Assembly (NCBI GenBank): GCA_003141555.1
Contig: PLMN01000019.1
Coordinates: forward strand, 62,001-126,000
DNA length: 64,000 bases
Source: Candidatus Aminicenantota bacterium
Lineage (GTDB): Bacteria; Acidobacteriota; Aminicenantia; Aminicenantales; UBA4085
Direction: 5' to 3'
The notes below the pieces were generated by a model, which was not told the DNA's origin, searched no databases, and worked only from the letters and a program-made list of their open reading frames with translations. The number at the start of each line of letters is the position of its first letter. Position 1 is the first letter of the stretch. Shown here in pieces: positions 58,639 to 63,356 of this stretch. The position numbers and the translations under genes are program-made.

Positions 58639-58753
58639 TTCCGAGCATCATCTTTCCATGAGAATCTGAGAGCTCGCCCCGCGTCATTTCGAGGAGGCAA
58701 GAAGGATTTTCAGTCCATTGACGTTATTAGCCGGGTGTATTACAATGTGTGAC

Positions 58754-58975
58754 ATGAAAACAGCGACTTTGACCATCCGGTTGGACGAAGACACGGAGCG
58801 GCTCCTGGCCCAATCGAGCCGGCGGTCCGGCAAGAATCGGAGCGAGATCGCGCGCGAAGCCATCCGGCGGCAGCTGAGAATCGAGCGCTTCCGGGAGCTT
58901 CGCGCCGAGAGCATCCCTTATGCCGAAGCCGCCGGTTTCTTCACCGACGAGGACGTCTTTCGCGAAGTTTCGTGA
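58754..58975 (+). CDS. Ribbon-helix-helix antitoxin
   Basis: 73 residues. MKTATLTIRLDEDTERLLAQ and RRSGKNRSEIAREAIRRQLRIERFREL make an RHH DNA-binding domain like CopG/ParD; the rest (AESIPYAEAAGFFTDEDVF) is the toxin-binding tail. Start at 58754 after an in-frame earlier ATG at 58718 that lacks coding character. It overlaps the PIN toxin gene (GTGA). Confidence 0.88.
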   Translation: MKTATLTIRLDEDTERLLAQSSRRSGKNRSEIAREAIRRQLRIERFRELRAESIPYAEAAGFFTDEDVFREVS

Positions 58976-59415
58976 AGATCTTCCTCGACACGAATGTCCT
59001 GGCCTCGGCCATAGGCACGCGAGGCCTGTGTCGCGAAATCGTCGAAAGCGTCCTCGAGGCGCATGAGCTCATCGTCCCCCCAACTTTGTTGTCGGAGCTG
59101 GAACGAACCCTCGACAAGAAATTCGGATTTCCCCAAGAGCTCATAGCGAAATGGCGGGATCTTCTCTTGTCGGAATCGACCCAGGCCTACGTCTTGGAAA
59201 GGCTTCAATTGCCGCTTAAAGACCGAAGTGATATCGTCCTCCTCTCCGACGCGGCGGCTGGAAAAGCCGCGATATTCATCACGGGAGATCGCGAGTTATT
59301 GAGTGCCGGGAAGCTCGAGACCATGGAAATCATTTCCCCCCGAACATATTGGGAGCGATTCAATCCCAGGCGCGTCGCTGCCGTCCGGCCGGCGCCATCC
59401 AAGAAGGACCGATGA
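58972..59415 (+). CDS. PIN-domain toxin (ribonuclease)
   Basis: 147 residues. KIFLDTNVLASA has Asp6, LLSELERTL has Glu42, and DRSDIVLLSDAAAGKAAIFITGDREL carries the later acidic residues of the Mg-binding site. GTG start at 58972 overlapping the antitoxin stop. With the RHH partner it forms a VapBC-like type II module; the protein would cleave RNA when free. Confidence 0.9.
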   Translation: MKIFLDTNVLASAIGTRGLCREIVESVLEAHELIVPPTLLSELERTLDKKFGFPQELIAKWRDLLLSESTQAYVLERLQLPLKDRSDIVLLSDAAAGKAAIFITGDRELLSAGKLETMEIISPRTYWERFNPRRVAAVRPAPSKKDR

Positions 59416-59520
59416 TCCCGATCCTTGCCCACTTCAATAAAAACTAACCTTTTCTCGCTGAGCAGTGTATAGTTTATAAAGGGTCAATGCTGGCCCAAGA
59501 AAACACGGAGGAGACAGGGA

Positions 59521-61029
59521 ATGAAAAAAGCGCTGGTCGCCCTCGCGGTTCTCGTCCTCGCCGCTATGGCTTCTGCCCAGACCTGGTTCAAGGGCACCCT
59601 CGACCAGGCGATCGCCAAGGCCCGCACCGAAAAGAAGCTGGTCCTTCTCGATTTCTACTCGAGTGGCTGAGGGGCCTGTAGACTGCTGGGTCAGCAGTTT
59701 TACACCGCCCCCAAGTTCCAGGACTTCCTGAACAAAAACTTTGTCCTCTGGCGCGCCGACAACGAGGAAGCCGTCGGCGTCGCCACGTTCTCGAAATTCA
59801 AAATCAGCGCCACCCCGACCGTCATGTTCCTCGACGGCGACGGCGCCGAAGTCGACTGGATCGTCGGCTATGGCCCTCCTCCCGAAGAATTTCAGGAGAA
59901 ATTGGCCAAGATCGTAGCCGGCGGCGAGACGTTCAAGGACCTGAGCGTCGCCTACGCCAAGAATCCCAAGGATGCGGCGACGGTCTTCAAGCTGGCCCTC
60001 AAGTGGGCCTATCGTTATGACTACTCCAAGGCGATTCCCCTCTACAAGGAGGTCATCACCCTCGACCCCGACGGCAAGGCCGGCACCTACACGAACGAAT
60101 ACACCAAGGTGACGGTCCCCTACACGGAATACGCTGCTCTCCAGGTCGCGGCCCAGGGAATTTCGGCTAATCCGCCCTCGGCCAAGCCGATCCGCGACTT
60201 CCTGGCCAAGCATCCGAAGAGCCCGCTCGTGAGGGACGCCTACGCGCGGTTGGCGGGCTATTACGGCCGGACCGCTCCCAAGGAGGAAGCCGGGCCGTTC
60301 TTCGAGGAATATGCGGCCAAGTTCCCCGACGACCCGACAATCCTCGACCAGTGGCTCGCTCGCATCATCAAGGACAAGGGGCCTTACGAAAAAGGCGTCG
60401 AGCTGGCCGAGAAGATCCAGAAGGCGCGCCGCGGCCTCACGCTCCCCGATCCTAACCAGAACGTGGCCGAGCTATATCTGCTCAAGGGCGACAAGGACAA
60501 GGCCGACGACGCGTTCGGCAAAAGCTACATGGAAAACCAGCTGTTCACCCTGGCCTACAACCTGATCGGCTACGCCGACTACTGGATCGGCAAGGACGCC
60601 AACAAGGAAAGCGCGCAGGCCATGGCCGAGAAAGCGCTGGCTATGGAGCCGGACAACGCCTACATCATGCAGCAGGTGGCCGGCGTCTACATCAAGCTGA
60701 AACTGGATGACAAGGCGCTGGCCCTCTTCGGGCCCGCTTACGCCAAGAAGAACGACAAGGACGCGAACGCCTTGTCGAGCTACGCCTCATTCTGGAGCGG
60801 CCAGGGCAAGAACCTCGACGGCGCGCTGGCCGCGGCCAAGAAGGCGATCGAGCTCAAGCCGGCCCAATACTACAACTGGGTGACGCTGAGCGGCGTCCAG
60901 GAGAAGCTGAAGAACAACGCCGAAGCCGTCAAGGCCCTGGAAAAAGCGATCGATCTCGCGCCCGAGACGATCAAGGATTACTACAAGAAGAACCTGGAGA
61001 AGCTGAAAGGCGACACGGCCAAGAAATAG
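59521..61029 (+). CDS. Probable selenoprotein: thioredoxin-fold domain with U-x-x-C plus helical repeats
   Basis: Reading through an in-frame TGA (codon 50, 59668-59670) gives a 502-residue exported protein. After a signal peptide (MKKALVALAVLVLAAMASAQ) comes a thioredoxin-like domain: LDQAIAKARTEKKLVLLDFY, then S-S-G-U50-G-A-C53-R, and the cis-Pro loop at residue 99 (ISATPTVMFLDGDG). The TGA is exactly where the first Cys of CxxC would be. The frame stays open for 452 codons after it, with the same codon style. From about residue 125 on, TPR-like helical repeats follow (KALAMEPDNAYIMQQVAGVYIKL, KAIELKPAQYYNWVTLSGVQEKL). GGAGGAG precedes the ATG. A nonsense mutation is the alternative. Confidence 0.8.
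59668..59711 (+). promoter_or_regulatory. SECIS-like hairpin for selenocysteine insertion
   Basis: Immediately after TGA, GGGGC (59671-59675) pairs with GCCCC (59707-59711); TGTAGA (59677-59682) pairs with TTTACA (59699-59704) with one G-T; CTGCT (59683-59687) pairs with AGCAG (59693-59697). That is 16 bp with a C/CC internal loop and a bulged T (59698), around apical loop GGGTC (59688-59692). The E. coli fdhF SECIS also has GGUC at the apex, and the 17 nt between TGA and the loop fits the known spacing. Confidence 0.75.
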
Positions 61030-61075: not shown

Positions 61076-63007
61076 TCAGAGCAGGAGCCGGACGGCGACG
61101 CTCAGGATGATCGCGACCGTTACGCTCAGCGCGGCCGAGAGAAAAGCGATCTTCTTCCCGACCTCGCGCCACAGGACGGCGAACGTCGAGAGGCACGGGA
61201 TGAAGAGGCTGACGAACACGGTGAAGACCACGATCTGATTCGCCGTGACGACGGTCATCAGCTGCTGGTAGCCCACGCCCAGGGCCTGAAGCATCATCAG
61301 CAGCGATAGCTCCTTCCGTAGGAACCCGAAGATCAGGGTCACGCCCAGCTCCCGGGGCAGCCCGAGAACGCCCGAGACGAGCGGCGAGAGGGCGGCGTTG
61401 ATCACGGCGTCGCCGTGAAGGGCCTGGACCAAGCCCAAGAGGATGCTCCCGCCGATGAGCAGCGGCCAGGCGAACAGGGCGAACGATTTCAGCTGGAACC
61501 AGATCTTCAAGCCGATGCTCTTGAGCGACGGCATCTTGAGCGTCGGGATCTCGAGGATGAGGCCGGGCGAGGCCTCCTTGAGGAACAGGCTGAGGATGCG
61601 CCCCAGAACCGCGACCAAGGCGATGTTGGCCGCGTAGAAGCCCAGAGCCCACCAAGGACCGAGGAAAAACGCGACCAGGGCCAGGATGATCGTCGTCCGG
61701 GCCGAGCACGGGATGAACGGGATCAGGAGCGAGGTCAGGATCCGATCCCGCCGCGATTCGAGGATGCGCGTTGCGGCGATGGCCGGGACGTTGCAGCCGA
61801 ACCCGAGGATGAAAGGCGAGACCGATTTGCCGTGGAGGCCGATCCGGTGCATGAACGCGTCCAGCAGGAACCCGGCGCGCGCCAGGTAGCCGACATCGTC
61901 GAACAGGGCCATGAGGAAGAGCAGCGGGATGAAATAGGGCAGCACGATCGCCACGCCGCCGCCGATGCCCGAGGCCAAGCCGTCGGCGACGTGGAAGACG
62001 AGGCCACTTCCGAACTCGGCCGCGAGCCAGGCTTTGAGGCCGGCGAACGGCTTGAGGAGCGCGCTTTCGACGGGCCCGCCGATCTTGAAGATCGCGAAGA
62101 AAAAGCCCAGCAGGACCGCGATCAGGACGGGATAGCCCCAGATCGGGTGCATGAGCACGTCGTCCAGGCGCTCGCCCCAGCTGCGCCTCGTCCGTCCCCG
62201 GACCAAGCTTGCCTGCTCGGAAAGCTTGAGAGAGAGATGATGGCGCTCGGCGGCGACGGCTTCGTAGGCGGGCATGCCCCGCCGCAAGGCGAGCTCATCC
62301 CGTATCCCGTCGAGCGTCGCTTTCAGGCCGGGGTCGATCTCCTCCAGGAATTCGCTGCAGAAGAGATGGCCGGATTCGATCATCTGGATCGCCGTGAATC
62401 GCGGATTGGCGATGCACGGGAAATCGGCGGGCAGGCTCGCGACGAGCTTGTCCACGACCGATTCGACTTCGGCCGACCAGCGCGGCAGCGGCCCGCGGCA
62501 GGGCGACTCGAGGCAGCGGAACGCGGCTTCGAGCAGCTCCTTGACGCCCCGGCCATGGGCGGCCACGGTCGGGATCACCGGCACGCCCAGCAGCTCCGCC
62601 AGGCGGCCGGCGTCGATCGTGATCCCCTTCTTCTCGGCGAGGTCGGTCATGTTCAGGGCCACGACCATCGGCCGCTCCATCTCCAGCAACTCGAGCGTCA
62701 GCTCGAGGCTCCGGCTGAGGATCGAGGCGTCGACCACGTTGACCATGACATCGGGCTTCTCCTGGAACAGATGCCGGAGGGCGACCTTTTCTGCCGGATC
62801 GGCGGGATGAAGCGAATACGTCCCCGGGAGGTCGACCACGTTGAGCAGCCGGCCGTCGATGTTGACCAGGCTGTGGGTATGCTTGACCGAGGTCCCGGGG
62901 AAATTCGAAGTCTGGGCCTTGTACCCTGCGACGGCGTTGAAGAGCGTGCTCTTGCCGCAGTTCGGCTGGCCTATGAAGATCAGGAGCGGCGCCTCAGGGG
63001 CGCTCAT
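61076..63007 (-). CDS. feoB: Ferrous iron transport protein B
   Basis: 643-residue Fe(II) transporter. Cytoplasmic G domain: IGQPNCGKSTLFN (G1), VKHTHSLVNIDG and VVDLPGTYSL (G2/G3), ALNMTD (G4). Helical GDI-like spacer, then about eight membrane spans with two Gate regions, where the key Cys lie in LGFGCNVPAIAATRI and IPFIPCSARTTII. Start overlaps feoA by 14 bp. Inner membrane; imports Fe2+ under anoxic or reducing conditions. Confidence 0.95.
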   Translation of the reverse strand: MSAPEAPLLIFIGQPNCGKSTLFNAVAGYKAQTSNFPGTSVKHTHSLVNIDGRLLNVVDLPGTYSLHPADPAEKVALRHLFQEKPDVMVNVVDASILSRSLELTLELLEMERPMVVALNMTDLAEKKGITIDAGRLAELLGVPVIPTVAAHGRGVKELLEAAFRCLESPCRGPLPRWSAEVESVVDKLVASLPADFPCIANPRFTAIQMIESGHLFCSEFLEEIDPGLKATLDGIRDELALRRGMPAYEAVAAERHHLSLKLSEQASLVRGRTRRSWGERLDDVLMHPIWGYPVLIAVLLGFFFAIFKIGGPVESALLKPFAGLKAWLAAEFGSGLVFHVADGLASGIGGGVAIVLPYFIPLLFLMALFDDVGYLARAGFLLDAFMHRIGLHGKSVSPFILGFGCNVPAIAATRILESRRDRILTSLLIPFIPCSARTTIILALVAFFLGPWWALGFYAANIALVAVLGRILSLFLKEASPGLILEIPTLKMPSLKSIGLKIWFQLKSFALFAWPLLIGGSILLGLVQALHGDAVINAALSPLVSGVLGLPRELGVTLIFGFLRKELSLLMMLQALGVGYQQLMTVVTANQIVVFTVFVSLFIPCLSTFAVLWREVGKKIAFLSAALSVTVAIILSVAVRLLL

Positions 63008-63239
63008 CCGCGGCCTCGACCACGATTTTCTGGGCGATCCCCCGGCCCACGGCGGCGGTCACGCCCGTCCGGAGGTTTCGGATCAGGACCGGCCCCCGGA
63101 GGATCCCCAGGGCCTGGAGCTCGATGTCGTCGCCGACGTTGAAGCCGAGGGCGAACAGGCGGCGCCGGACGCCTTCGCCGCCGGCGATGTCCACGATCCG
63201 AAGCGTCGCGCCTTTCGGGGATTGAACCAGGTTCGTCAT
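62994..63239 (-). CDS. feoA: Ferrous iron transport protein A
   Basis: 81-residue SH3-like partner of FeoB. GATLRIVDIAGGEGVRRRLFALGFNVGDDIELQAL and GPVLIRNLRTGVTAAVGRGIAQKIVVE are typical. The start was set at MTNLVQSPKG (63239) because the earlier ATG (63329) lies within the -10 box and would translate the Fur box. The upstream ribosome-binding site is weak. Confidence 0.88.
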   Translation of the reverse strand: MTNLVQSPKGATLRIVDIAGGEGVRRRLFALGFNVGDDIELQALGILRGPVLIRNLRTGVTAAVGRGIAQKIVVEAADERP

Positions 63240-63303
63240 CTCGTCATCTTTCGGCCGGCGGGTCGCGCGGGCGCTCCTATCCACTTGTTGATCCGGAATC
63301 GGT

Positions 63304-63324
63304 AATTGAGAATCATTCTCAATT
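63304..63324. promoter_or_regulatory. Fur box upstream of feoAB
   Basis: AATTGAGAAT-C-ATTCTCAATT is a perfect 21-nt palindrome matching the Fur consensus core. It lies immediately downstream of the -10 element, so Fe-Fur would block feoAB transcription. Confidence 0.85.
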
Positions 63325-63327
63325 GCC

Positions 63328-63356
63328 ATGATACGACATCGCGAAAGGAAAATCAA
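63328..63356 (-). promoter_or_regulatory. Promoter of feoAB
   Basis: Minus-strand TTGATT (63356-63351), 17-nt spacer, TATCAT (63333-63328), directly followed by the Fur box. Confidence 0.65.

Follow-up and report, generated by a model that had tools for sequence, protein, structure and literature searches.

The locus analysed here raises two questions: whether a TGA lying inside an otherwise open reading frame is read as selenocysteine (Sec), and what the protein so produced would do. The window, by which we mean the whole stretch of 64,000 nucleotides that was analysed, lies on contig 7 of a 3.79 Mb genome that is 97% complete.

The gene, its in-frame TGA and its relatives

The complete gene occupies positions 59521 to 61029 of the forward strand, is preceded on that strand by a Shine-Dalgarno-like GGAGGAG (59507-59513, 7 nt before the ATG at 59521, read from the sequence) and would encode 502 amino acids with Sec at residue 50. 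Its frame is interrupted by a single TGA (59668-59670, forward strand) at codon 50, in the context DFYSSG-U-GAC-RLL, where thioredoxins have the first cysteine of their CxxC motif; it thus forms the first position of a U-x-x-C motif with C53 as the putative resolving cysteine. Re-reading the sequence bore out what a preliminary description had claimed of this region, namely the TGA at codon 50 within S-S-G-U-G-A-C-R, the 452 further open codons beyond it and a standard gene caller that starts at the ATG of codon 102 and loses the redox motif: the caller returns only a 401-aa ORF from 59824. As gene callers drop the redox site in this way, such genes would be annotated as TPR proteins only. The length of the open frame was dropped as evidence for Sec, since 22 TGAs of this GC-rich window are preceded by at least 45 open codons and followed by at least 300, and frame openness is therefore weak evidence when taken alone; the codon-50 TGA is the only one of these 22 with a cysteine three codons on (UxxC).

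The gene stands alone between two groups of ORFs identified by eye: upstream (58718-59415) a toxin-antitoxin-like pair made up of a small RHH-like ORF and, after it, a PIN-like one, and downstream on the minus strand (61076-63356) genes of FeoB-like and FeoA-like type for the transport of ferrous iron. A search of the 64-kb window with Rfam gave two ordinary tRNAs and nothing else.

The source genome contains four paralogues with one TGA each, namely the window gene and three further copies in tandem on contig 31 (214611-219347; L008:5612-10375), which are 50-57% identical and share its TGA position. From the same order, 39 distinct homologous genes were extracted, every one of them with the TGA followed by x-x-C, the full-length identity of the window protein to these all-TGA homologues being 40-61%, and the homologues covering the site, from 22 genomes, have exactly one TGA each; U50 and C53 are invariant among 30 homologues. 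Two genomes (G004 and G005) hold five copies each. Among the copies are longer Sec variants (L066, L067 and L068; 722-732 aa), which keep the UGA and the hairpin and have additional helical repeats. Across the phylum, 396 genomes yielded no further homologue at E <= 1e-30, nor any Cys member at that level; a scan of named genomes gave at least one match, in a Candidatus Aminicenantes MAG (JAFNEO010000008.1), and a plasmid collection gave only distant Cys homologues.

Three more distant proteins have cysteine at the active site: a 523-aa protein of G047, a genome of the same order without selB, with WCGPC at position 50 and a thioredoxin domain followed by TPRs, and proteins of similar layout from Prevotella sp. 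oral taxon 299 (442 aa, WCVPC) and Leptospira interrogans (357 aa, WCSYC). In a phylogenetic tree the Sec genes stand apart from two Cys sequences, which cannot be placed firmly owing to the length of their branches. Every relative examined thus has either TGA or Cys at position 50, and as the close relatives have the one and the distant relatives the other, the position is to be read as Sec or Cys; alternation of these two residues at the same position is typical of the classic selenoprotein families. The objection that re-sequencing might turn the TGA into TGC, TGT or TGG can be set aside, because the TGA recurs in 39 genes across many genomes. The presence of TGA in every close relative in the order argues for a real selenoprotein family.

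The SECIS-type hairpin and the selenocysteine machinery

A SECIS-type hairpin with an 8-bp stem and a GGU loop (59681-59699, forward strand) starts 10 nt after the UGA, its loop beginning 18 nt after it. Across 24 sequences, 97.9% of the cells of this stem are paired and four of the eight pairs show compensatory changes (GC/CG at the loop-closing pair, CG/UA, AU/CG and AU/UA), a signal that was lost when the partners were slid; RNAalifold, unprompted, found the same helix. The loop is of 3 nt and reads GGU in most of the 24 sequences. Folded singly, the window sequence forms a composite stem of -26.8 kcal/mol (z -2.2). The preliminary description had proposed a 16-bp hairpin with a GGUC-containing loop after the TGA; the hairpin, its conservation and its GGU loop stand, but only the inner 8 bp are kept among homologues, the outer part being specific to the window sequence, and the 16-bp SECIS stem was rejected. 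Synonymous diversity, measured in a six-column window along 250 codon columns of 30 genes, is lowest at codons 49-58, which span the UGA and the hairpin. A bulged U of the kind present in the SECIS of E. coli fdhF is not conserved in the stem described here. The conserved hairpin agrees with bacterial SECIS elements in lying just after the UGA and in having a G in a small apical loop (PMC1088965).

All four components sought for Sec insertion are present in the source genome: selA (536 bits), selD (361 bits) and selB (349 bits, over the cut-off) are contiguous in this order, and together with a tRNA-Sec with anticodon TCA (the UCA tRNA), located on contig 31, they fall inside about 8 kb. We then considered 59 genomes, comprising the source genome and its relatives. 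Homologues of the family occur in 22 of them, all of the same order, and selB over the cut-off in 19, every one of which has the family, while selB is absent from all 37 genomes that lack it. Either selA or selB is present in 21 of the 22 family-positive genomes, two of these (G033 and G041) having selA without selB over the cut-off; the exception, G006 (86% complete, 370 contigs), has the gene with neither selA nor selB detected, which may be due to genome incompleteness. In five genomes of one taxonomic family of the order (G016, G034, G044, G046 and G050), SelB, in long open frames, is matched only over positions 1-345 of the model, which suggests that the C-terminal (SECIS-binding) part is divergent there.

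On sequence evidence we regard it as nearly certain that the gene encodes a selenoprotein with Sec at UGA-50, given the sel machinery, the unbroken conservation of the TGA, the covarying stem, the synonymous constraint, the co-occurrence and the Sec/Cys pairs. That TGA-50 is a true stop, the ORF from the codon-102 ATG being either what is left of a pseudogene or a TPR protein in its own right, agrees with the output of the standard caller and is nonetheless extremely improbable, because the protein is conserved across codons 51-101 and because of the same TGA, hairpin, machinery and co-occurrence evidence. Less probable still, to the point of being negligible, is another reading of UGA, by near-cognate read-through or as tryptophan: any recoding would in principle yield the same open frame, but relatives have Cys at position 50, tRNA-Sec and SelB are present, the UGA always falls at one site, and selA, selB and selD match their families without internal stops.

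Domain architecture, gene neighbourhoods and probable function

The first 19 residues (59521-59577, forward strand) have the sequence features of a signal peptide, with MKK, a hydrophobic core and A-S-A before Q20; K2, K3, A17, A19 and Q20 are each at least 90% conserved, and pLDDT is below 50 at residues 1-3 and 9-19 of the AlphaFold model. The protein would thus be exported. Residues 20-135 (59578-59925, forward strand) form a DsbD-gamma-like thioredoxin domain, matched by Pfam at residues 23-128 as Thioredoxin_7 (PF13899, 7.4e-15, 55.3 bits) and Thioredoxin_2 (PF13098, 2.8e-13, 50.5 bits; cut-off 27), and include a T-P-T motif, invariant in 30 homologues, in the thioredoxin cis-proline loop (residues 98-100; 59812-59820, forward strand). 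Residues 138-500 (59932-61020, forward strand), where several TPR families exceed their Pfam cut-offs, are nearly all helical with pLDDT mostly above 90. In the AlphaFold model (mean pLDDT 91.8) the thioredoxin domain is followed by a TPR superhelix, and Pfam and the model together support the earlier view of an exported thioredoxin domain fused to helical repeats. The top Foldseek matches are TPR superhelices, for example OGT, and the thioredoxin part matches DsbH, several thioredoxins and the C-terminal domain of DsbD, the last with Z 14.1, rmsd 2.3, 110 aligned residues and 28% identity.

In two relatives the gene lies among sel genes and genes for DsbD_N-domain proteins. In G030 (L061:3622-12695) the order is selA, selD, the selenoprotein gene, a further gene, a DsbD_N-domain protein gene and selB; the further gene encodes an exported protein of 676 aa that matches nothing in Pfam. 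In G042, the gene directly upstream of selA (L063:3047-3610) encodes a stand-alone protein with a DsbD_N domain and a CxxxxC pair, and the selenoprotein gene is found just past selB on the other strand; this CxxxxC protein may be the selenoprotein's redox partner. The source genome has no DsbD_N gene in its own sel cluster, and encodes elsewhere a complete DsbD whose gamma domain has a CxxC motif. Directly before its paralogue array lies an HtrA-like trypsin/PDZ gene (L008:4415-5467), as also in a congener, and in other genera OsmC and pyridine-nucleotide-disulfide oxidoreductase genes flank the arrays. These neighbours point to a role in the envelope and in thiol redox chemistry.

The thioredoxin domain, its likeness to DsbD gamma, the signal peptide and the neighbouring genes lead us to propose an exported UxxC oxidoreductase, and from these features we judge that the protein is very probably an exported thiol oxidoreductase. 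SelB carrying Sec-tRNA-Sec(UCA) would be recruited by the hairpin after UGA-50 and Sec inserted, the signal peptide would direct the protein across the inner membrane, and the DsbD-gamma-like domain would act beyond it as a thiol-disulfide (selenol/selenenylsulfide) oxidoreductase. Sec50 would attack a substrate disulfide or other oxidised sulfur and Cys53 would resolve the mixed bond, while the TPR superhelix would most likely bind substrates or partner proteins and a DsbD-type membrane pathway would be the probable source of electrons. Taken as a whole, this account of an exported UxxC selenoprotein with SelB- and hairpin-dependent Sec insertion, partner-binding TPRs and a probable DsbD supply has, in our judgement, a high likelihood. 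The narrower proposal of a reductase fed through DsbD, which rests on the fold similarity to DsbD gamma and on the gene neighbourhoods of the two relatives, falls somewhat short of being probable, and the protein may be an oxidase or an isomerase instead of a reductase. Against the DsbD link stand the isolated position of the gene in the window and the lack of a DsbD_N gene in the source genome's own sel cluster.

Another possibility is a Sec-dependent periplasmic chaperedoxin analogous to CnoX/YbbN, in which the TPRs hold unfolding proteins and UxxC protects or reduces their thiols, together with an HtrA-type protease. The thioredoxin-TPR layout seen with Pfam and AlphaFold, the HtrA-like gene before the array and the OsmC genes near other arrays would suit such a role, but CnoX is cytosolic and GroEL-linked, as against a putative signal peptide here in which AxA-Q is conserved, no CnoX-type NCBIfam model matches the protein, and DsbD gamma gives a good alignment with the thioredoxin part; we hold this function to be unlikely. 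Sec is often used in peroxide and oxidised-sulfur chemistry, and the OsmC and pyridine-nucleotide-disulfide oxidoreductase genes beside the arrays could likewise indicate a Sec-dependent scavenger of peroxide or oxidised sulfur, with peroxidase-like use of the selenol, in place of a disulfide reductase; UxxC with a T-P-T loop is, however, a disulfide-exchange active site and no peroxiredoxin or GPX family is matched in Pfam, which makes such a scavenger quite improbable.

The proposed exported oxidoreductase also bears on what retains a Sec system in this lineage, for which the usual answer is FdhA-like proteins. FdhA-like proteins of the 59 genomes have no in-frame stops, which rules out FdhA as an additional selenoprotein there. 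From its near-exceptionless co-occurrence with sel genes and the clusters shared with them in some genomes, we tentatively suggest, with rather more doubt than confidence, that this exported family (order-wide, always with Sec, multi-copy with up to five per genome and with a link to a periplasmic electron carrier of the DsbD_N type) could be the main or only reason why this Aminicenantia order retains its Sec machinery. The near-perfect co-occurrence with selA and selB makes the question of what retains this costly system testable.

Comparison with known selenoproteins and thioredoxin-TPR proteins

With DsbD, the protein shares the fold and the active-site position of the gamma domain (28-29% identity over about 110 residues, Z 13.8-14.1), but it has no DsbD_N or transmembrane domains, has Sec for the first Cys and is fused to TPRs; the DsbD model NF001419 gives 36.8 bits against a cut-off of 330, and the protein is not a DsbD, only one domain being gamma-like. 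None of the NCBIfam models reaches its cut-off. Two of them describe proteins that share the Thioredoxin_7/DsbD-like domain and have Sec forms: the Trx7/PDZ (seleno)protein NF041199 (20.9 bits against 300) has a CxxU motif and a PDZ layout, and TsoB, NF045694 (40.3 against 805), a UxxxxU motif and a rhodanese/DsbD-like layout, as opposed to the UxxC and TPRs found here. CnoX/YbbN, which also combines a thioredoxin fold with TPRs, is much shorter; it is not among the structure matches listed, which is uninformative as single domains fill that list.

The 2026 inventory counts 119 prokaryotic selenoprotein families, including thioredoxin-fold UxxC entries of PF13098, PF00085 and others (PMC13188914). 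Its Table 1 has no thioredoxin-TPR selenoprotein, and no match to TPR, Acidobacteri or Aminicenan was obtained in its text (PMC13188914). Its thiol:disulfide interchange selenoprotein (PF13098) and selenoprotein thioredoxin (PF00085) are likewise thioredoxin-fold UxxC proteins, but going by the descriptions in the table, they are listed by their thioredoxin domain and without TPR (PMC13188914). A literature search for selenoproteins of Aminicenantes found none in the collection searched, and a broader query gave only unrelated selenium papers. The family adds to the prokaryotic selenoproteome an entry from a little-studied uncultured lineage, and would be a case of Sec at work in an exported thioredoxin that is joined to a long scaffold for binding partners.

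The closest parallels are the exported Cys-type proteins annotated as "thioredoxin family protein", such as those of G047, Prevotella sp. oral taxon 299 and Leptospira interrogans, which likewise have an N-terminal signal or membrane segment, Thioredoxin_7 or Thioredoxin_2 and helical repeats, and whose CxxC aligns with UxxC; they differ in having Cys at position 50 and no TGA, in their identity of 22-25% over the aligned part and in their number of repeats. As these distant relatives share the layout, the idea of a family without any Cys relatives was dropped. The preliminary description had considered the architecture unfamiliar among selenoproteins, which holds for the Sec form as compared with the 2026 inventory, while the layout itself is known with Cys, so that only the Sec version is new. 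By sequence comparison, this Sec form of the exported thioredoxin-TPR layout, not found in the published inventory, is a new, lineage-restricted and multi-copy variant of an arrangement otherwise known with cysteine.
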